From assembly GCF_001466305.1 (NCBI RefSeq), contig NZ_JWID01000003.1, forward strand, positions 126,186 to 190,185: a DNA stretch of 64,000 bases. Direction: 5' to 3'. The notes below the pieces were generated by a model. That model made no database searches. It was not told the DNA's origin and was given only the letters and a program-made list of their open reading frames with translations. Shown here in pieces: positions 6,602 through 17,250 of this stretch. Position 1 is the stretch's first letter; every line of letters begins with the position of its first letter. The DNA is from Defluviitalea phaphyphila. Lineage in GTDB: Bacteria > Bacillota > Clostridia > Lachnospirales > Defluviitaleaceae. A program made the translations under genes and the position numbers.

Positions 6602-9049
6602 TTATTTTTTCGATTTTAGTATTCCAATTACTACTCCATTTATAAATACATCAGTCTTTTTCATTTGAATAGGTTCATAGTTTTCATTTTCAGGAATTAA
6701 GAGAACGTAGTCTCCCATATTCATATATTTTTTTAAAGTAGCATTTTCATCTATAGTTACAACTACTATATCCATATTTTTAGCTGTATTTTGTTTATGA
6801 ACTACTACATAATCGCCATATTCAATGTCAGCCCCCTGCATACTATCCCCTACTACTTTTAATAAAAAACATTCATTATTTCCTTCTAACCAATCTGATG
6901 GAATTCTAAAATCTTCTCCTAATTCTTCATTAACAATTTTAGGAACTCCTGCTACAATTTCTCCATACACATTTAATTTTTCTAAATTTTCATAAATTAA
7001 TTCTTCATTTTCTCCTTCTCTATTTATAATAATATCTTCTGAATTTTCACGATCTCTTGAAAATATATATCTTTGTCTATGTTTTATATCTATATAAGTA
7101 TATGTTTCTATACTAGAAGGAAGCATTGAAGGATGAAAAGAAGGTATTTCTTCTATTTTTTCAAAATCCTTATTAATTATAACTAAATCATATCCATCTG
7201 TTACTATTCCATATTGACAGGTTTTACTTACGTTCATATAAGACTTTAGTTGACACAATGCATTTTCTATGCCTGTTTTTAATGCTTTAGTTTCTATATA
7301 AATATAAGGAATCTTTTCATTATTTTTATAAATATAAACAACTATATCTACAAATCCTACTTTAGAAAAATTGTAAACTTTTTGTTCTATATCAATTAAA
7401 CTTTTTGGATAATTATAAGTATTTATTAGTTCTGAAATTACCCACTGTCTTATTTTTTCTTCATTAGAATAAATATCTTTTATTTTATCAGAAAAATAAT
7501 AATTATGTATTTGTATAGGATAATATTTTCTCATTTTACTTTCCATACGCATTTTTAAATATCTGGGGTTTATTTCATTGATAAATTTAGATGGTTTACC
7601 ACTACTTGTTAAATACAATAATTCATTAGATCTTGTCATACCAACATATAATAATTTTCTTTCATTACTTTCTATTGCTTTTTCATCTATAAAATCTCCT
7701 TGAGTATATGACGGTATAATATCCTCATTTAAACCACAAATAAACACCACTTTAAATTCTAACCCCTTTATAGAATGCATAGTTAATAATTTAACTGCTT
7801 CATCTTCAAAATTAGGATTAGTTCTATCTATCATTTTTGATATTATATTTTTTTCATTTAAATATTCTTTAATAGTTATAAGTTGATTTCTTGTTTTTGC
7901 AATGACTGCAATATCACTTATTTTATATCCATTAGAAAATTTTTTCTTTATTTCTAAAGCTATATATTCTGCTTCATCTTTAACATTTTTAAATAGTCGA
8001 TAAACAGGATATTCTCCTTTTCTATCAATTAATGATGGTTTTACAAAATTTTCATCATCTAAAATATTCTCATCTTTTTCTAATAAACTATAAGCTGCTT
8101 CTGCTATTTGAGTAGTAGTACGATAATTTTTACTTAAAGAATTACTTTTTCCAGTCATATTAAATCCAATACTACTAAAACTTCTTCCTTTTACTAGCCA
8201 AGAATGGGGATAAATACTTTGTGCTGTGTCAGCAATAAAACAAAAACTAGAATATTCTTTTTCATTATATAATTCTTTTAAAAGTTCAATTTGAACTCTT
8301 GTTAAATCTTGGCTTTCATCTACAATAATATGAGTATATTTTTCATTTACTTTTCTTTTTGCTTCTTTTAAAGCTAAAAGTGCCATAGTTTTACCGTCAA
8401 TAAATCCTTGTTCCATTAACACTTTATCAAAAAGATTCATTAATTGAAAAATTATTCGTCTTGTATCAGAATTTTTATGTAGCCTTTGAGGCCCTTCTGA
8501 AGCACCGTTAGTCCTTCCTAATCTATCAACATTCTGATATTCTTCTAATTCCATATAATTACAAGATTTTATCCAATCAATTTCATCCAATATAAATTTC
8601 ATATTTTTTTGATCTAATATTTTAATATTTGGATTTTGTTTTTTTAACATTTCTATACATCTATTCATTGTATTGTAAATAATTTTATTATCATAAGTAA
8701 GCTCATAGGGGAAGTTAGTTCTTTTTTTATAAATTTTAAAATAACTATATAATATCTGATCTATGGTATATATTTTAACTTTGTCTTTTTTATCTATAAA
8801 TAAGTCATCAAAACTCATTTGATCTTGATCTTCAATTTTAGAATATATATATTTTATATAATTAATTAAAGTTCTATTGTATGTAACCATAAGAATTTTA
8901 TCATCTTCTCCGTAACAATAATGATTTAAAAGATGTGGTATTCTATGTACTGCTACGGTTGTTTTTCCACTTCCAGCGACTCCTTTAATTAACATGTGAC
9001 CATTTGGTTTGCTTGATACTAATCTATTTTGTTCCATATTGAGTTTCAT
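6602..9049 (-). CDS. UvrD-type helicase fused to HsdR-like nuclease and LexA-like S24 peptidase
   Basis: An 815-residue three-part protein. Residues 1-500 are a superfamily I helicase: Walker A GVAGSGKTT (23-31), Walker B VDESQD (243-248), KNYRTT (307-312), TMHSIKGLEF (423-432) and LLYVGMTRS (466-474). Residues 520-650 resemble the type I restriction HsdR N-terminal nuclease of PD-(D/E)XK fold, with candidate metal residues Glu555, Asp568 and Glu586-x-Lys588 (FVDIVV, IETKA). Residues 690-815 are a LexA/UmuD-type S24 peptidase: possible cleavage bond Ala700-Gly701 (IVAGVP), Ser736 (VGDSMQG) and Lys773 (ATLKKY). Ser-Lys spacing is 37, as in the LexA at 19613. GGGGAG precedes the ATG. It is first in an operon with the methyltransferase and PLD stump. 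The function is inferred as DNA repair or defence under control of DNA damage. Confidence 0.9.
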   Translation of the reverse strand: MKLNMEQNRLVSSKPNGHMLIKGVAGSGKTTVAVHRIPHLLNHYCYGEDDKILMVTYNRTLINYIKYIYSKIEDQDQMSFDDLFIDKKDKVKIYTIDQILYSYFKIYKKRTNFPYELTYDNKIIYNTMNRCIEMLKKQNPNIKILDQKNMKFILDEIDWIKSCNYMELEEYQNVDRLGRTNGASEGPQRLHKNSDTRRIIFQLMNLFDKVLMEQGFIDGKTMALLALKEAKRKVNEKYTHIIVDESQDLTRVQIELLKELYNEKEYSSFCFIADTAQSIYPHSWLVKGRSFSSIGFNMTGKSNSLSKNYRTTTQIAEAAYSLLEKDENILDDENFVKPSLIDRKGEYPVYRLFKNVKDEAEYIALEIKKKFSNGYKISDIAVIAKTRNQLITIKEYLNEKNIISKMIDRTNPNFEDEAVKLLTMHSIKGLEFKVVFICGLNEDIIPSYTQGDFIDEKAIESNERKLLYVGMTRSNELLYLTSSGKPSKFINEINPRYLKMRMESKMRKYYPIQIHNYYFSDKIKDIYSNEEKIRQWVISELINTYNYPKSLIDIEQKVYNFSKVGFVDIVVYIYKNNEKIPYIYIETKALKTGIENALCQLKSYMNVSKTCQYGIVTDGYDLVIINKDFEKIEEIPSFHPSMLPSSIETYTYIDIKHRQRYIFSRDRENSEDIIINREGENEELIYENLEKLNVYGEIVAGVPKIVNEELGEDFRIPSDWLEGNNECFLLKVVGDSMQGADIEYGDYVVVHKQNTAKNMDIVVVTIDENATLKKYMNMGDYVLLIPENENYEPIQMKKTDVFINGVVIGILKSKK

Positions 9050-9215: not shown

Positions 9216-9255
9216 AGGGCTTGTATCAGCAAATTTTTGCTAACACAGTAGCCCT
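9216..9255 (-). terminator. Terminator of the cobalamin operon
   Basis: An outer AGGGCT/AGCCCT stem encloses an inner imperfect stem with GCAAA/TTTGC, followed by a U-rich tract on the minus strand. It lies just after the stop of the SLH protein. Confidence 0.7.
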
Positions 9256-9262
9256 ATTATTT

Positions 9263-12019
9263 TTATTCAACTACTAAATTATATAGGTTATATAATATTA
9301 TAGCAACTTCTGCTCTTGTTGCATTTTGATTAATAGTTTCATAATTTGAAGTATCTAATACTCCTTCTCTTTCTGCCATGGCCACACTTGATTTTGCCCA
9401 GTCAGGAATATTCTTATATTCCTCTTTAATTATTTCTTCTTCTTTTATAGGTTTATACCCTTCATTTAATAAAATATTTTCAACGATTTTTATAACTTCT
9501 TGTTTTGTTATATTCCCTTTAGGGTCGAAAGTTTTTTCATCTTTTCCGTTTATAATATCATTTTCATAAGCTAATTTTATGGTATCATAATACCATTTAT
9601 CTTCTTTTACATCTTCAAAAGGCATTTCCATATCTTTTGAAGTATATTTTAACATTCTCACTATTAAAGTGGCAACTTCTGCCCTAGTTATATTAGCATT
9701 AGGGTCAAAAGTATCTTCAGTTCTACCATTGATTATACCCTTAGATGCTAAAGCTTCTATTTTATCTTTTGCTTCTTTTACTTCATTTAGATCATTAAAA
9801 GTTTTATTGTTTTCTTTTATAAAATATTTTCCAAAGTTATTGGTTATAAATGTAATTTTTTCATCATTATCATTATAAACTCCACCCATATTTTCAATAG
9901 TACCATCATCTTTTAACTGAAAAACTGTTAAATCGTCTTTCTTATCTATATATTCATCATAATTTATACTTATAGTTATTGGATTTTTAAGATTTATAAC
10001 ATCATTTTCATCAGTTTTTATATTTAAATCGATTAAAGAAACTTCTTCGGGAATTAAAGCTTTTTCATTTTCTTTTAAATTAGAGACATCTATTTCTTCT
10101 ATATTTAAAGTTATACTTTTTTCTTTAACATCTTCTGTTAAATCTTTAGTATCTATATTAAGTATCACCTTATCTGCTTGCACTACTATTTTATCAACTT
10201 CTTTTTCAAATAATTTTTCCATTAATATTGCTGGTAATGTTACTGAATTTTGATTTTTATCAGTTTTTATTTTAAATTGGCTTTGTGCTAATTTATTCGT
10301 AGTATTAATATCACTATATTTTTCTTTTGCCTCAAGAGTAATATCTATCATATCATCTATAATTTCTTCTATTCTATCTTTATCTTCCATGTCATTTATT
10401 AATAATAAAGCATCATTTATATATGAAGAAGATATTCTTGTAAATTCTTCAAAACCTTCTTCTGTTTTTACTATATTTAATGAATCATTTATTACGTCAT
10501 TTACTTCTAAAATATAATTTTTAAAACTTTCTTTATCATTTACTATTTCATTTATTAAATCATCCAAAGAAATTAATGTTTTTTCTTCATCTTTGCTTTT
10601 TAAAATTTCCTTTATATCATCTACCATCTTCTCTGGAGAACTATTATTTATCAATCCTCCTCCACTTGCACTACTAGTATTTCTGCTATCGCTGGTATAG
10701 TCAGAAGTATAAAACCAGTGTATATAATCACCATCAGAAACCTCATAATTTGCGGCAGATACAGCTACTGTTTCCCCATTTACATTAAACATCCAACCAC
10801 TCATAGGGCCTTTATCAAACTCTGATAATCCATTTATACTTTTTACATATGCATTTCCAACAATAGTATAAGAAATCCTTCTATCACTTAATACTTTTTC
10901 TAATACATCTAATATAGTATCTCCTTCATTTACGGTTATATTAGTTTTAGAGATAATTGTCTCATCATATCCTGTTATTTTTATAGATACTGTAATTGTA
11001 CCTGTACTATTTTGTATATTATCATTATTAGAGTTATTATCGGAAGTATCATTAGATAAATCAACTATACCTCCTAATCTTAAATACCCTTCTAAAGCCT
11101 TTGTATTATTCTTTATTCCGCCATATAATCCAAAACTTCCATCTTCATTTAAAGCATTTTCTATTAAATAATCCTTAGGCCCTCTTCCATTACTTTTCCA
11201 TGAATTTAAATCTTTATCTAATAAATCTAATATATTAATTACTTCTACAGTATCTGTTAATGGATCATCCCATCCATACACAAAACTACCATCATCTTGC
11301 TGATTTGATTTTATCCATTCTAATCCCTTATCAATAGCTGTTTGTACTTCTTCTTTATTAGATACATAATCTTTTAAATAAATTAAAGAACGTATAGCTT
11401 GAGCGGTAGACATAAAATCAGGGCCCCAAGAACTTTCCCAAGTGCCTGTTTCTTGATTCTGAGTATTTAATATATATTCAACAGCTTTTTGAGTATTAAT
11501 TTGATTAATTACTCCTGCTCTTCCTAAAGCTTCAAAAGCTGGCATATCAATATAAATATTATTTGCAAAAGACCCATCATCATTTTGTTTTTCTTTTAAT
11601 AGGTCTAATAGTTCATTTGCTCTAGAATTTTCTCCTATGCTTTTCATAGCTAAATAAGAATGGCTTATGTTCTTAGCATCATAACTAGGATTTCCTAATA
11701 TTTCATCTACTAAATCAATACAATTATCTTTTAAACTCTTTCCATCATACACATATGTATCTACATCAATATCTACTTTTGCTTCATTTAACATATAAAT
11801 ATCATAAACTCCTAAATTAACATATTTTGTATCTACAGGAGTGCCTGACATAAATGCCTCTATATTATTTTTTGCTGCTTTAGTTGCTAGTTTAGACAAA
11901 ATATCTTCTTCTTGTGCTAAAACAGTATTTAAGCCTAATTGTGCTGGTAATATATTAACTAATGTCATTATAAAAATAATAGTTGCTAATATAAACTTAT
12001 TTTTTCTTATAGTTTTCAT
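9263..12019 (-). CDS. Surface-anchored intrinsic factor/transcobalamin-like protein with SLH domains
   Basis: 918 residues. A signal peptide (cleavage likely after VLA, residue 35) is followed by an alpha/alpha-toroid of prenyltransferase/squalene-cyclase repeats (about 60-320, with QNDDGSF, QDDGSF and NEDGSF repeat ends). Next come a Ser/Asn-rich linker, a DUF4430/transcobalamin C-terminal-like beta domain (about 340-441, with SGWMFNVNG and DGDYIHWFY), an unrecognised middle part (460-735), and three SLH domains (741-795, 800-855, 870-918) that would bind cell-wall polymer. The toroid plus DUF4430 order matches the alpha and beta domains of mammalian intrinsic factor and transcobalamin. It is the last gene of a cobalamin-riboswitch operon with an ECF importer, so I infer that it captures corrinoids outside the cell. 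Binding is not proven by sequence. Confidence 0.88.
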   Translation of the reverse strand: MKTIRKNKFILATIIFIMTLVNILPAQLGLNTVLAQEEDILSKLATKAAKNNIEAFMSGTPVDTKYVNLGVYDIYMLNEAKVDIDVDTYVYDGKSLKDNCIDLVDEILGNPSYDAKNISHSYLAMKSIGENSRANELLDLLKEKQNDDGSFANNIYIDMPAFEALGRAGVINQINTQKAVEYILNTQNQETGTWESSWGPDFMSTAQAIRSLIYLKDYVSNKEEVQTAIDKGLEWIKSNQQDDGSFVYGWDDPLTDTVEVINILDLLDKDLNSWKSNGRGPKDYLIENALNEDGSFGLYGGIKNNTKALEGYLRLGGIVDLSNDTSDNNSNNDNIQNSTGTITVSIKITGYDETIISKTNITVNEGDTILDVLEKVLSDRRISYTIVGNAYVKSINGLSEFDKGPMSGWMFNVNGETVAVSAANYEVSDGDYIHWFYTSDYTSDSRNTSSASGGGLINNSSPEKMVDDIKEILKSKDEEKTLISLDDLINEIVNDKESFKNYILEVNDVINDSLNIVKTEEGFEEFTRISSSYINDALLLINDMEDKDRIEEIIDDMIDITLEAKEKYSDINTTNKLAQSQFKIKTDKNQNSVTLPAILMEKLFEKEVDKIVVQADKVILNIDTKDLTEDVKEKSITLNIEEIDVSNLKENEKALIPEEVSLIDLNIKTDENDVINLKNPITISINYDEYIDKKDDLTVFQLKDDGTIENMGGVYNDNDEKITFITNNFGKYFIKENNKTFNDLNEVKEAKDKIEALASKGIINGRTEDTFDPNANITRAEVATLIVRMLKYTSKDMEMPFEDVKEDKWYYDTIKLAYENDIINGKDEKTFDPKGNITKQEVIKIVENILLNEGYKPIKEEEIIKEEYKNIPDWAKSSVAMAEREGVLDTSNYETINQNATRAEVAIILYNLYNLVVE

Positions 12020-12029
12020 CTAAATCCCC

Positions 12030-12896
12030 CTATTGTATAGTATTTAATAAGTTTTTATTTTTTTTAATAAAATTAGTAGCATTATGTAATCTAGTAAATA
12101 TTGATATTCCTCTTTCATAATCATTAATAGCAATTAATCCATGCCATGTAGATATATAATTACTTTTATTTAATGTTTTTAAATGTTTAAATCCACCATC
12201 AGGCAATTTATACTCTAATAGCTTGTCATATAAAGACTTTTCAACTTCTAATCCTAACATAGTTTTTGCCATAATATACCAAGCTACAGATTCACAGGTA
12301 CTTTTTTTATCTATATTGTTCTCAATAAAGTTTAAAGCTTTTTTTACTTCAATGGAATTTTCATCTAATCCAAGAATTTTATAAGCCACTATTGCCATAG
12401 CTGTCATATCTATATCTGAGTTATCAGAATTTACAAAAACAGCAAATCCACCATCTTCATTTTGATTTTGTTTTAACCATTTTAACGCTTTTTCTTTGTC
12501 ATAATTATCTTCTCCTGCAACATACAAAGAAATAATTCCCCATATATGAGCATTTATTAACTCATTTCCTGTTCCATCTATATTATCAGCAAACTTTCCT
12601 CTATAATTTTGCGAATTTATAACTTTTTTTATTTCCTTTGATACATCTATTCCTAATGGAAGTGCTCCTACAATATAAGCTTCATAATCGGTAGTTATTG
12701 TAGATGTTATTTTTTCTAATGTTTTGTCCTTAACATTATTAGCATTAGAATATAATGCTAATATTCCCCATTCATCTAATTCGTAATTGTTTAAAACTTC
12801 AACTGTATCTTTATTATTAGTTAAAGCAAAGGAAATATTTGTAATAAATATTGAAAATATTAATATTAAACTAGTAATTCTTTTTATTTTTTTCAT
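12030..12896 (-). CDS. Secreted alpha/alpha-toroid (prenyltransferase-repeat) protein
   Basis: A 288-residue protein with an N-terminal signal peptide (cleavage probably after SFA, near residue 24) and then helical repeats of the terpenoid-cyclase/prenyltransferase toroid type, with repeat marks such as LKQNQNEDGGFAVF and KLPDGGFKHL. It corresponds to the alpha domain alone of the intrinsic factor architecture, and lacks both DUF4430 and a wall anchor. It lies two bases after the S-component gene and ten bases before the large SLH protein. Catalysis is unlikely: no cyclase DxDD-type acid motif is evident. I infer a role in extracellular corrinoid handling, perhaps pairing with the DUF4430 lipoprotein. 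Confidence 0.8.
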   Translation of the reverse strand: MKKIKRITSLILIFSIFITNISFALTNNKDTVEVLNNYELDEWGILALYSNANNVKDKTLEKITSTITTDYEAYIVGALPLGIDVSKEIKKVINSQNYRGKFADNIDGTGNELINAHIWGIISLYVAGEDNYDKEKALKWLKQNQNEDGGFAVFVNSDNSDIDMTAMAIVAYKILGLDENSIEVKKALNFIENNIDKKSTCESVAWYIMAKTMLGLEVEKSLYDKLLEYKLPDGGFKHLKTLNKSNYISTWHGLIAINDYERGISIFTRLHNATNFIKKNKNLLNTIQ

Positions 12897-12898
12897 AT

Positions 12899-13516
12899 TT
12901 ATACCTCCTCTTCTTCTTTAATAAAATTTAATCTATATTTAAATCTTTTAAGTATAGTAATAAAATCTTTCCCAAAAAAATACATAAAACCAAAATTCCC
13001 AAGGGCATGCATCAAATCAAAATAAAATGATGTCGAATAAACAAGAATAAAACTTTTTAAAGTATGAGGATACACAAAAGTTATAAAATGCCACAAATTC
13101 ATAATATAATCAAATAAAAAGCCCCATAAAAATGCAAATATACTTAGAAAGATTCTAGAAGGATTTTTAAAAAATTTATTTAATATTCCAGCGCTTAATC
13201 CTGCTAAACCCCAACTTAACATTTGCCATGGTGTCCAAGGTCCATGTCCTAAAAATCCATTAGAGACCAAAGTAGCTATAAATCCAACCATAAATCCATA
13301 GAACGGTCCTAATACATATCCAGAAATAATAACTAGAAAAGTCGTAGGTTGAACATTTGGAATAGCACTAAAAGGAACTCTAGATACTCCTGCTAATCCT
13401 GACAAAGTGGCTAATAGGGATATTTCCTTAATAGATATTTTTCTTCTTTCATATGATACAACAATAATAATAAATAAAATTAATAAACTTAATCCTAATA
13501 TTAGACCATAATTCAC
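12899..13516 (-). CDS. ECF transporter S component, probably cobalamin (CbrT-like)
   Basis: A hydrophobic 205-residue integral membrane protein with about six segments and the ECF S-component pattern ending SRVPFSAIPNVQPTTFLV, followed by GHGPWTPWQMLSWGL, a block I associate with CbrT-like S components. The substrate-specific S subunit binds vitamin and topples in the membrane when coupled to EcfT. The start is GTG at 13514-13516, directly after the EcfA stop codon, with GGAG eight bases upstream. Its position in a cobalamin-riboswitch operon makes corrinoid the best substrate guess; queuosine-precursor or another vitamin is the alternative. Confidence 0.85.
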   Translation of the reverse strand: MNYGLILGLSLLILFIIIVVSYERRKISIKEISLLATLSGLAGVSRVPFSAIPNVQPTTFLVIISGYVLGPFYGFMVGFIATLVSNGFLGHGPWTPWQMLSWGLAGLSAGILNKFFKNPSRIFLSIFAFLWGFLFDYIMNLWHFITFVYPHTLKSFILVYSTSFYFDLMHALGNFGFMYFFGKDFITILKRFKYRLNFIKEEEEV

Positions 13517-15106
13517 CTAACTGACTCCTTTATTTATATGTAAAAAATTAATAGCGTCATCTTCAGTTAATACAAAATCATTGTATCCTCTAAATAGTTT
13601 GTTAATTTGAGTAGAATAATATATTCCTGAAGTAAGAACTTCATACTTCGAACCTATTTGAGCTATTTCTCCATTAAAAATCAATCCTACCCGATCACAA
13701 AATTTGCTAACAAATTCTACATCATGGGTCACTACTATAATGGTTGTTTCTTTTTTTCTAATATCTAATAAAATATTTCCTAAATTATCAATTAATTCTA
13801 AATTTAGCCCCCTAGTTGGTTCATCTAATATTAATATATCTGGTCTCATAACTAGTATAGAAGCTAAAGCCACTCTCTGTTTTTCTCCACTACTTAAATC
13901 TCTAGGATTTTTATTTTTATATTTATAAATATCTAATTGTTTTAATATTTCTTCTATTATTCTATCATCTTTTATACCCTTATTATCTAAAGTAAATTTT
14001 AATTCTTCATAAACAGTATCATTAAATAAATAATCATTAGGATTTTGAGATAAATATCCTATACTTCCATTAACCAAACGTTTCCCTCTAAAGTTTTTTA
14101 ATAATCCTGCAATAAGTTTTATTAATGTTGTTTTTCCACTACCATTTGCGCCCATTAATCCTAAAATTTCATTTTGATATATAGTTAAATTTATATTATT
14201 CAATACATTTTTTTTATTGTCATAAGAAAAATTTATTTTTTTTAGTTCTATTATAGGAGATAGACTATTTTCTTTTGATTTTTTCATTTTAATTTTCTTA
14301 TTAGATGTTAAAAATTGATTTTTATCTATTATATTTTTTATTAATTTTCTCCCTTCTTTTATATTAAGAGGGATGTCTTTAATATCTAATTTTGAAAAAA
14401 AATGAGAGATTGAAGGTAAAAAGTTTACTTTATATCTATAGGCCCAAGAGATAAAAGATCGTGGCTCTCCATCATATACTATTTCTCCATTTTCCATAAA
14501 TAAAATTCTATCTGCTAGATGAAAACATCTATCTATTTTTTGTTCTATTAAAAATATAGTATAACCTAATTCATCATTTAATCTTTTTAAAATAGTCATT
14601 ATTTCTGCAGAACTTGAAGGATCGAGCTGTGATGTTGGTTCATCTAAAACTAAAAAATTATTTCCTAATGCAAGCATAGCACCAATAGCAACTTTTTGTT
14701 TTTGTCCTCCTGATAATTCATAGGTATTACTTTGTTTTATATCATCTATATTTAAAAAACTTAAAGTTTCCATTACTCTTTTTTTCATATATTTTGTTTC
14801 TAGTCCTATATTTTCAAGTCCAAAAGCTAATTCTCTTTCTACTTTATCCATAACAAGTTGTCTTTCTGGATCTTGAAAAACCATTCCAACTTCTATATTG
14901 CCATATATATTTCCTTTTATTTTCCCTCCATAAAATTCTGGAACTATTTTATTAAAAATTCTTCCTAAAGTAGTTTTACCTGAACCTGAATTTCCTAACA
15001 GTAATATAAACTCACCTTCATTTATAGAAAGATTAATATTTTTTAATGCCGGATTTTTTTCTTGAGGATAATAATAAGTTAAATCTCTGATTTTAAAGAT
15101 TTCCAT
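13517..15106 (-). CDS. ecfA: ECF transporter ATPase, fused EcfA-EcfA'
   Basis: 529 residues containing two complete ABC ATPase domains in one chain, equivalent to EcfA1 plus EcfA2. The first has Walker A GNSGSGKTT (38-46), signature LSGGQKQ and Walker B LVLDEPTSQLD. The second has Walker A GANGSGKTT, signature LSSGEKQR and Walker B LILDEPTRGLN. It overlaps ecfT upstream by 28 bases and abuts the S-component GTG downstream. The protein powers the vitamin importer through EcfT coupling helices. The fused arrangement and operon position suggest a dedicated (group I) ECF transporter rather than a shared module. Confidence 0.92.
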   Translation of the reverse strand: MEIFKIRDLTYYYPQEKNPALKNINLSINEGEFILLLGNSGSGKTTLGRIFNKIVPEFYGGKIKGNIYGNIEVGMVFQDPERQLVMDKVERELAFGLENIGLETKYMKKRVMETLSFLNIDDIKQSNTYELSGGQKQKVAIGAMLALGNNFLVLDEPTSQLDPSSSAEIMTILKRLNDELGYTIFLIEQKIDRCFHLADRILFMENGEIVYDGEPRSFISWAYRYKVNFLPSISHFFSKLDIKDIPLNIKEGRKLIKNIIDKNQFLTSNKKIKMKKSKENSLSPIIELKKINFSYDNKKNVLNNINLTIYQNEILGLMGANGSGKTTLIKLIAGLLKNFRGKRLVNGSIGYLSQNPNDYLFNDTVYEELKFTLDNKGIKDDRIIEEILKQLDIYKYKNKNPRDLSSGEKQRVALASILVMRPDILILDEPTRGLNLELIDNLGNILLDIRKKETTIIVVTHDVEFVSKFCDRVGLIFNGEIAQIGSKYEVLTSGIYYSTQINKLFRGYNDFVLTEDDAINFLHINKGVS

Positions 15107-15963
15107 TTTTTATACCACCATATAAATAACAAATTCAAATATAAAATGAAATTGAAAACTAATAAAAAGATAAGCTCATGATAAGAAAAGTTTCTTAATG
15201 TAGGATAAAAATCATAATCTCCATAATTTAGCATAAAACTTATAATAAAAATTATTATTAATAATAAATTTGTCATATTAATCATATAATCAATTTTTCT
15301 AAATCTTAATATGTAATAATTAGTTCTTTTTGCTTTACCATACAATCTTGAATGAAGAGCTTCTGCTCTATCCAAAGACCCTTCTAATGAGGATATAAAT
15401 ATAATTTTTATAATAGGGTATACTGCTCTAACTTTTTTAAAAATATTTTTTTGATTAAAATTTACTCCCCTTAATACCATTACTTCTTTTATTCTTTTTA
15501 AATCAATGCTTAATTTATGAATTATATTTATTGTCATAGAAGATATAATTGTAAGTTTATTTAAATATTTAGCAAAAAAACTAAAAATATCATCTCTTTC
15601 ACTTAATAAGCTATAAAATACAAAAACAGTTGTTATACATGTTAACTTTAACCCCATATTTAATCCAAAAGCTATGGATTCTAAAGTTATTTTTATTCTC
15701 CCTAAAAATGGAACATACGAAGCTTTAAAAATTATTGTTCTACCATTTTGGGATATTAAAGGATTTAATAATATTAAAAAAATAATATTAAACTTGCTGT
15801 ATTTTAAAACTTTTATCAAAGAACTTCTTTCACCTATTATCAATGTACCTATTACTATAAATAATAATATTGAAATTATATACAAAGGATTATTATATAA
15901 CAAAGTCAAAAAAAATAATAATAAACATAATATTATAGAAGTAGCTGGATGTAATTTCAACAT
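15079..15963 (-). CDS. ecfT: ECF transporter transmembrane component EcfT
   Basis: A 294-residue membrane protein with hydrophobic segments in the N-terminal half and at the C-terminus, and a central cytoplasmic helical region bearing the two EcfT coupling motifs in variant form (KEVMVLRGVN and RAEALHSRLYGK, of the x-R-G/A type) that contact the ATPases. It connects the S component to the fused EcfA. The ATG has AGGTGAT upstream and the gene starts eight bases after the lipoprotein stop. Its 3' end overlaps ecfA by 28 bases, typical of translational coupling. Confidence 0.9.
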   Translation of the reverse strand: MLKLHPATSIILCLLLFFLTLLYNNPLYIISILLFIVIGTLIIGERSSLIKVLKYSKFNIIFLILLNPLISQNGRTIIFKASYVPFLGRIKITLESIAFGLNMGLKLTCITTVFVFYSLLSERDDIFSFFAKYLNKLTIISSMTINIIHKLSIDLKRIKEVMVLRGVNFNQKNIFKKVRAVYPIIKIIFISSLEGSLDRAEALHSRLYGKAKRTNYYILRFRKIDYMINMTNLLLIIIFIISFMLNYGDYDFYPTLRNFSYHELIFLLVFNFILYLNLLFIWWYKKWKSLKSEI

Positions 15964-15971
15964 GGTATCAC

Positions 15972-16904
15972 CTAATTATTTACAATAGGTAAATTCACAA
16001 TTTTATCTTCTGTAATCAATAAAGATGTTTTTCCTTTTATTTCTTCAGGATTTTCATTTAAAATTTTTATAGCTTTTTTTATTAAATTTTCATCATTTCC
16101 AGTAATCATCCATATAACAGATAAAGAATTATATTCTTTTTGAACACTAGAAATTATTGCTCCTTTTTCATAGGTTTCTACAGTTTTTCTATCAAAACTA
16201 TATATATTTATATTTTCTTCTATATCATAGAAAATACCAAAATTTTCTTTATTATCAAAAACATTTTTTATCATAGGAATATTCTTTATATCTTTATATT
16301 TTCCAATTATTATTGAATTTATTTCTATATTTTCAATATCATTTTTATCATAAGTATTAACTGTTATATTTTTTAATCCCTCATCTTTTAAATATTTTTT
16401 TAATTCGTCTATTTCTGATGTATAATCTCCATTTTCAATTATTTCTAAATCTAATCCACTATTAATAAAATTAATAGGATATGCCCCTATTATATTAGAA
16501 ACATAATTATCATTTCCCCAGCTATGATAATCCCATATAACCACATCTTCACTAGATAAAACATATTCATTAGCACCGATGTTTGCTAAATTTCCATTTA
16601 CATAATAAAACCAATCTAATTGTTCTTTATTTGTTTTATTAGTAAAACCTGATTCTATTCCATTAATAGAATTTACAAATCCTCCACCATAAGCTGTCTC
16701 TATTTCAAAATTTTCTTCTAAATAATCAATCACAGTATAATTTTCTTTATATTCTAGAAATTTATTGTCTATTATTTGGTTCCCAAAATTTTTGCTAATT
16801 ATAAAATTTACTTTTCCAGAACTTTTTTCATCTTTAATTTGTCCACAAGAAACTAATATTAAAAATATTAAATTAAATATTAAGACTTTTGTTATTTTTT
16901 TCAT
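15972..16904 (-). CDS. DUF4430 (transcobalamin beta-like) lipoprotein
   Basis: A 310-residue lipoprotein: MKKITK, a hydrophobic stretch and lipobox ILVSC with the acylated Cys at residue 20. A DUF4430-type domain follows (about 27-125, with TVIDYLEENF, YGGGFVNSINGI, DWFYYVNG and VIWDYHSW), then about 180 residues I do not recognise. It corresponds to the beta domain alone of the intrinsic factor family. ATG at 16902-16904 lies six bases from GGAGG (16911-16915); another ATG at 16908-16910 touches that RBS and is less likely. It is the first gene after the cobalamin riboswitch, so it probably holds corrinoid at the membrane for the ECF importer. Confidence 0.85.
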   Translation of the reverse strand: MKKITKVLIFNLIFLILVSCGQIKDEKSSGKVNFIISKNFGNQIIDNKFLEYKENYTVIDYLEENFEIETAYGGGFVNSINGIESGFTNKTNKEQLDWFYYVNGNLANIGANEYVLSSEDVVIWDYHSWGNDNYVSNIIGAYPINFINSGLDLEIIENGDYTSEIDELKKYLKDEGLKNITVNTYDKNDIENIEINSIIIGKYKDIKNIPMIKNVFDNKENFGIFYDIEENINIYSFDRKTVETYEKGAIISSVQKEYNSLSVIWMITGNDENLIKKAIKILNENPEEIKGKTSLLITEDKIVNLPIVNN

Positions 16905-16919
16905 AATCATCCTCCAAAT

Positions 16920-16952
16920 AAAAACTCTTCCTCGACTTGAGAAAGAGTTTTT
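16920..16952 (-). terminator. Riboswitch expression-platform terminator
   Basis: A stem of about 14 bp with one U-G pair and loop AAGUC ends in five U, placed just before the RBS of the first gene. Bases of its loop and upper stem (AAGUCGA) are complementary to UCGACUU at about 17032-17038 in the leader, giving a candidate antiterminator pairing. Confidence 0.7.
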
Positions 16953-16966
16953 AGACATACAAAAAT

Positions 16967-17002
16967 AATTTTAAGTTATTAAGTACTTAATAACTTAAAA
17001 TT
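16967..17002. repeat. 36-bp perfect palindrome in the riboswitch leader
   Basis: A perfect palindrome centred between 16984 and 16985. It extends by nine more pairs (16958-16966 with 17006-17014) across a three-base bulge, giving one very long hairpin between the aptamer and the terminator. Confidence 0.85.
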
Positions 17003-17052
17003 AAAATTTTTGTATATCTTCAAATTCTTTTAAGTCGAAAGAAATATGAAGA

Positions 17053-17198
17053 TTGTTAACCTAGGTATTCTGGCTTCCGCTTCATCTTCGGATTATCCCT
17101 TCCCACACATAAAGTGCAGTGGATACCATAATCCTTATCCACGGTTACAGCTGCGACTACAGCAAGGGATTTTCACCCTTTTCCCTAGAATTAACAAC
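17053..17198 (-). promoter_or_regulatory. Cobalamin riboswitch aptamer
   Basis: Read on the minus strand it has the AdoCbl aptamer series: GGGAAAAGGGUGAAAAUCCC, GCUGUAGUCGCAGCUGUAA, CCACUGCAC..GUGUGGGAAGG, and the B12 box AAGCCAGAAUACCU. Flanking GUUGUUAA and UUAACAA pair as P1. It lies in the leader of the DUF4430-ecfT-ecfA-S component-toroid-SLH operon and predicts repression when cobalamin is plentiful. Confidence 0.95.
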
Positions 17199-17221
17199 AT
17201 TTTTATATAATATTATTTTAA

Positions 17222-17250
17222 ATAATACCATTAACTTTTATAAAAGTCAA
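17222..17250 (-). promoter_or_regulatory. Sigma-A promoter of the cobalamin operon
   Basis: Minus strand -35 TTGACT (17245-17250), 17-bp spacer and -10 TATTAT (17222-17227). Transcription would begin about 15 bases before the riboswitch P1. The rest of 17251-17367 is A+T-rich and shows no gene. Confidence 0.7.

Follow-up and report, generated by a model that had tools for sequence, protein, structure and literature searches.

A six-gene operon of the clostridium Defluviitalea phaphyphila very probably encodes a cobalamin-repressed system for the capture and import of vitamin B12 (cobamides). It lies in a 64,000-nucleotide stretch of contig NZ_JWID01000003.1 (positions 126,186 to 190,185), here called the window, to which all coordinates refer. 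The genes and a cobalamin riboswitch form a single minus-strand operon that extends from the riboswitch start at 17210 to the final stop at 9263, with all genes on the same strand and either overlapping or spaced by no more than 10 bases. In order, they encode a DUF4430 lipoprotein (310 amino acids (aa); 15972-16904), an energy-coupling factor (ECF) T component of the CbiQ family (294 aa; 15079-15963; PF02361, 45.6 bits), an ECF double ATPase (529 aa; 13517-15106), a CbrT-like ECF S component (205 aa; 12899-13516), a secreted stand-alone alpha toroid (288 aa; 12030-12896), and a wall protein (918 aa; 9263-12019). Its role in capture and import is well supported by four lines of evidence: homology of the S component to CbrT, a fold match of the surface proteins to intrinsic factor, transcobalamin and haptocorrin, conservation of the riboswitch among relatives, and a host with B12-using enzymes but apparently no B12 synthesis of its own. 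A preliminary description, made from the DNA sequence alone, had proposed corrinoid capture and import by domains resembling intrinsic factor and transcobalamin under B12 control. That proposal stands on these four lines, but its novelty is limited: the architecture and the idea of B12 scavenging date from a paper of 2007, and Firmicutes commonly carry the operon. The genes it named are present at their minus-strand positions with the lengths it gave (918, 288 and 310 aa), and the operon does hold a complete dedicated ECF module, comprising S, T and two ATPase domains.

The strongest sequence evidence on substrate is the homology of the S component to CbrT. When searched as a single sequence against the whole PDB, this protein had only one match, 6fnp_A (E 8.6e-14, residues 26-196). 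A profile built from 22 relatives retrieved the same chain at E 9.5e-23, followed by folate S components (FolT) at 8.5e-4. The chain was taken to be the S subunit from its length and description, and the structure, 6FNP, is ECF-CbrT of Lactobacillus delbrueckii, a proven importer of cobalamin and cobinamide (PMC5997447). By homology, the operon's S component would likewise transport cobalamin. Its Pfam matches are to the ECF S-type families ECF-ribofla_trS and ECF_trnsprt; Pfam found in it no match to CbiM, the S component that would mark a CbiMNQO cobalt importer, and among the operon genes neither the FecCD permease nor the solute-binding protein that would mark a BtuFCD importer. The double ATPase carries two ABC ATPase domains and matches ECF_ATPase_1 at 361 bits, above the NCBIfam cut-off. 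ECF-CbrT of L. delbrueckii is like the operon described here in its S family and in its ECF T component and ATPases. However, in L. delbrueckii a single ECF module serves CbrT and other S components alike, whereas this operon encodes its own module together with surface binders (PMC5997447). Natural fusions of the ATPase and S component occur in many Clostridia, where a single open reading frame of 790-990 aa matches both the ATPase and a CbrT-like S component (loci L044, L046, L047, L051, L055, L058 and others).

The operon is headed by a full-length cobalamin riboswitch aptamer (RF00174, positions 1-189 of 189) at 17041-17210 on the minus strand, scoring 81.3 bits (E 1.9e-18) against an Rfam gathering cut-off of 31.5 bits. 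It is the only cobalamin riboswitch in the genome. The B12 riboswitch of the preliminary description is thus real, though it sits just outside the interval of 9263-16904 assigned to the system. Our own cobalamin model, R1, scores it at 99 bits, with the window being among the model's 31 training sequences. Downstream, an expression platform (16920-17019, minus strand) consists of a long AT-rich hairpin at 17019-16953, followed by a terminator-like 14-bp hairpin and U run at 16952-16920, with a predicted fold of -48.7 kcal/mol (z -8.6). The 14-bp hairpin, which a terminator pattern scan did not list, abuts a Shine-Dalgarno sequence (GGAGG, 16915-16911) ahead of the lipoprotein ATG at 16904. The natural reading of this leader is a predicted OFF switch acting by transcription termination.

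Conservation of this arrangement was assessed in two sets of relatives. Of the 291 genomes sampled from the class, 133 encode DUF4430, and 49 loci, picked for their DUF4430 content and not for riboswitches, were scanned with all of Rfam. A cobalamin riboswitch occurred in 29 of the 49, and in 28 it lay upstream of genes for DUF4430, the toroid or ECF components that share its strand; one unassigned large open reading frame is sometimes the first gene after it. The preliminary description had named, as an observation that would weigh against it, operons in relatives lying under the riboswitch of another vitamin; none was seen at the head of the operon in these 49 loci. In L065 the ECF operon has an FMN riboswitch, but about 4 kb further upstream, and a sodium riboswitch in L059 sits downstream of the S gene; both were rejected as leaders. 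For the second set, named genomes were searched with the S-component profile, which gave at least 592 relatives, the best 80 of which are referred to here as the named loci. S component, DUF4430, T component and ATPase occur together in 69 of these 80, with a toroid as well in 59. The cobalamin model gave 56 matches in 52 of the 80 loci, all on the operon's strand, and the riboswitch leads the operon in 51, usually by 20-300 bases. By chance, fewer than 1% of 18-kb stretches would contain such an element, given one per 2.54 Mb in the host's own genome, and somewhat more in genomes that carry several. The 28 loci that lack a riboswitch match include several short contigs and several from lactobacilli or archaeal metagenome-assembled genomes (MAGs), and were not taken as counter-examples.

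Operons of this type are common among Clostridia, Bacilli, Paenibacillus and lactobacilli. Closer to the host its distribution appears patchy, since no S-component ortholog was found in seven genomes of the same family, where there was one weak match only. Seven lactobacillus loci (L152, L155, L181, L185, L194, L205 and L208) carry CbrT-like ECF genes, accompanied in most of them by DUF4430 and in several by a split toroid, and the cobalamin model detected no riboswitch in any of the seven. Two contigs labelled as archaeal MAGs (L147 and L184; Aciduliprofundum, Euryarchaeota) carry genes in the order DUF4430-T-A-S, with no toroid or riboswitch match.

The economy of B12 in the host is consistent with a need for import. 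In its genome, assembled in 76 contigs and reported to be 100% complete, neither CbiC nor CobS was found, so that both cobalamin synthesis and the completion of cobinamide look absent. The B12 users that the genome encodes include a B12-binding radical SAM protein and a MetH-like protein that unites B12-binding, pterin and methyltransferase domains. The host therefore uses B12 but apparently does not make it. The adenosyltransferase CobA is present, which fits a riboswitch for adenosylcobalamin (AdoCbl), while a PduO-type adenosyltransferase is absent from the genome. Genes for FecCD-type permeases, with no cobalamin riboswitch, occur elsewhere in the genome, and a second B12 importer may therefore exist.

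The surface proteins carry the two domains of the animal B12 carriers in both split and fused form, as had been proposed: Pfam identifies a wall protein with toroid and DUF4430, a lone secreted toroid, and a lone DUF4430 lipoprotein. The DUF4430 domain (PF14478) scores above the Pfam cut-off in the 918-aa protein (62 bits; residues 366-438, 10706-10924, E 7e-17) and in the lipoprotein (61 bits), and these are the only two DUF4430 proteins in the genome. Alpha-toroid signatures are likewise above cut-off in the 918-aa and 288-aa proteins (SQHop_cyclase_C, 28 bits; Prenyltrans, 36 bits). Behind its signal peptide, the wall protein comprises the toroid (11066-11911), the beta-grasp DUF4430 domain, a linker region, and SLH repeats (9266-9802; 83 bits in Pfam) that would anchor it to the secondary cell-wall polymer. 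CsaB pyruvyltransferase, which is needed for SLH anchoring, is encoded in the genome. A model of residues 37-450 was built from a 21-sequence alignment. The model has a mean predicted local distance difference test score (pLDDT) of 92, mostly 90-98 in the toroid, and shows twelve main helices arranged as an alpha6/alpha6 toroid, followed by the beta-grasp domain. Comparison of predicted structure with human transcobalamin had been proposed as a check, and in a Foldseek search of the PDB with this model the carriers came first: haptocorrin, transcobalamin and intrinsic factor fill the top 15 matches (E 1e-11 to 3e-9), with terpene cyclases next at E 7e-5. In VIA-align, one alignment with the carriers spans both domains in the same order. 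For the toroid alone, squalene cyclases (Z 21.8) and carriers (Z 20.7) nearly tie, and it is therefore the pairing of toroid and DUF4430 that points to B12. Binding of B12 by these surface domains would follow from their likeness to the carriers.

The 310-aa protein has a lipobox (LVSC), and its model (pLDDT 89) contains two domains. The N-terminal domain matches the beta domains of the carriers (VIA Z about 13). One of its top structural matches is PDB 3u7z (RUMGNA_00854), a solved bacterial protein which is annotated only as a putative metal-binding protein and may be another B12-binding candidate. The second, an alpha/beta domain in the C-terminal half (15972-16490), resembles a domain of the cellulose synthase subunit BcsB (VIA Z about 12) and the N-domains of GH67/GH115 enzymes (Z 8-12 across BcsB and GH67/GH115). 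This domain is common to about a dozen relatives, L050, L059 and L140 among them, while many others are without it, and its role is perhaps docking to the importer.

Several observations weigh against the B12 capture-and-import reading. The model of the wall protein fixes the two domains individually but not how they sit relative to each other, with a predicted template modelling score of 0.72 and a root-mean-square deviation from the carriers of about 9-12 over both domains (near 9.5 in VIA-align). The Pfam model of the animal carriers, Cobalamin_bind (PF01122), gave no match up to E 0.1 in the 918- or 288-residue proteins, whose toroids are matched in Pfam by cyclase and prenyltransferase models. 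Similarly, a PDB sequence-profile search with the toroid-DUF4430 alignment retrieved neither intrinsic factor nor transcobalamin, and was dominated by squalene cyclases and by bacterial Ig-like inserts from relatives. Because there is no sequence-level match to PF01122 or to the carriers, the window proteins are best filed as carrier-like and not as members of the carrier family. In ten of the 80 named loci, some of them on short contigs, DUF4430 stands alone and a toroid is missing; the toroid may thus not always be needed. Finally, a DUF4430-type ECF system in a lactobacillus may carry heme, and the heme ECF importer of L. sakei reportedly has a transcobalamin-like partner.

We propose that the system operates as follows. 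When AdoCbl is scarce, the riboswitch would permit expression of the operon. The SLH wall protein would hold a clamp of toroid and DUF4430, with the corrinoid gripped between the toroid and the beta domain as it is by intrinsic factor, while the lone secreted toroid and the membrane-bound DUF4430 lipoprotein would provide the same two halves separately. Together, the surface proteins would concentrate corrinoid near the membrane, where the lipoprotein could either take it from the wall protein or catch it directly. The CbrT-like S component would then bind the corrinoid, the ECF module of T component and double ATPase would import it, and AdoCbl made by CobA would shut the operon off. The anatomy of the system makes hand-over in the order of wall protein, lipoprotein and S component plausible, with the chances roughly even. 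We more tentatively suggest that the lone toroid and the lipoprotein's DUF4430 close round B12 as a two-piece intrinsic factor and deliver it to the CbrT-like S component, the fused wall protein having caught it first.

Gene content among the named loci bears on how the surface proteins might cooperate. One possibility, which we consider the less favoured though by no means negligible, is that there is no relay: the stand-alone toroid would join the DUF4430 of the lipoprotein in trans to form one clamp at the membrane, and the wall protein would do no more than store B12. As a variant of capture and import as proposed above, this possibility overlaps in probability with the proposal. Ten of the 80 loci, including Lentilactobacillus, have split forms only, with toroid and DUF4430 each on its own and no fused protein, which favours such pairing. 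Set against this, 40 loci combine a fused protein with a lone DUF4430 and have no lone toroid, and there the lipoprotein can work without one. The full set of the window, with fused protein, lone DUF4430 and lone toroid, recurs in 10 loci, including Moorella stamsii and Desulfoscipio geothermicus.

The cargo itself could differ from complete cobamides. It is improbable that the operon imports a B12 precursor or part, such as cobinamide or alpha-ribazole, or free cobalt: the T component is CbiQ-like and CbrT also takes cobinamide (PMC5997447), but the genome lacks both CbiC and the CobS required to complete cobinamide, the S protein is without a CbiM match, and a clamp of toroid and beta domain would suit a large ligand. 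Still less probable is import of another tetrapyrrole such as heme, with the riboswitch exerting indirect control only. ECF-type heme importers are described in staphylococci, streptococci and L. sakei (PMC7299338). Against heme stand an S component whose only PDB match is CbrT, a cobalamin riboswitch that leads the operon in most readable relatives, and the host's use of, and apparent inability to make, B12. That the toroids are secreted terpene cyclase-like enzymes unrelated to B12 is scarcely credible: their best Pfam and sequence matches are indeed squalene-hopene cyclase and prenyltransferase models, but the DXDD acid motif of squalene-hopene cyclase is absent from both window toroids and present in only 6 of 164 toroid domains of relatives, and they are secreted, fused to DUF4430, encoded inside a B12-riboswitch operon, and matched first by carriers in Foldseek.

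The gene set and the idea of its link to B12 were already known. In the passages seen of Burroughs et al. 2007 (PMC1796856), toroid-DUF4430 (SLBB) surface proteins of low-GC Gram-positives are described in CbiO/CbiQ operons that also encode a second, paralogous DUF4430 surface protein, with B12 synthesis usually lacking; B12 scavenging was predicted, and a transfer of the domains to animals proposed. The window shares with these systems the toroid-DUF4430 fusion, the second DUF4430 paralog and the CbiO/CbiQ-type transporter genes. Relative to those passages, which name neither an S component nor a riboswitch, it adds the CbrT-like identity of the S component, the riboswitch as the usual leader in relatives, the SLH anchor, the lone toroid, and modelled folds. 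New here are the identity of the S component, the count of riboswitch linkage, the fold-level confirmation, and the list of architectures.

Animal intrinsic factor, transcobalamin and haptocorrin, the best fold matches, resemble the wall protein in having an alpha6/alpha6 toroid followed by a beta-grasp domain. Sequence identity to them is low (about 12-18%) and the animal-family Pfam model misses the toroid. The window proteins are wall- or lipid-anchored and paired with an ABC-type importer, whereas the animal carriers use endocytosis. In Bacteroidetes, the lipoproteins BtuG and BtuH, together with BtuBFCD, likewise represent riboswitch-linked surface capture of B12 that feeds a transporter. 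They differ in comprising beta-propeller and BtuH domains, in a Gram-negative setting with outer-membrane BtuB, and involve neither DUF4430 nor ECF (PMC8941943).

Other features flank the operon. A promoter-like site (TTGACT-17-TATTAT; 17222-17250, minus strand) lies 12 nt ahead of the riboswitch and agrees at 10 of 12 consensus positions, with TG before the second hexamer; it is a consensus match only, equally frequent in shuffled sequence. At the operon's end, a terminator-like hairpin (9222-9247, minus strand) comes from a pattern scan that gave 2 such sites against 1.2 expected in shuffles. Directly downstream (6602-9049, minus strand) is a gene for an 815-aa protein that combines a UvrD-type helicase, an HSDR_N_2 nuclease-like domain and a C-terminal LexA-like Peptidase_S24 domain.

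Acquisition of B12 by Firmicutes is still poorly known (PMC8941943), and the assignment of transporters has been called an open problem (PMC6593275). No experimental test of the surface proteins came up in a literature search, which left subscription papers largely outside its reach. Moorella, Desulfoscipio and others carry the same gene set, and from a test of a single member B12 capture would be assigned to the many genes at present labelled DUF4430 or squalene-cyclase-like. If the two-piece arrangement of lone toroid and lipoprotein is correct, the operon would represent a working bacterial relay of both domains of the animal carriers, and an extant relative of the proposed source of these domains in animals.

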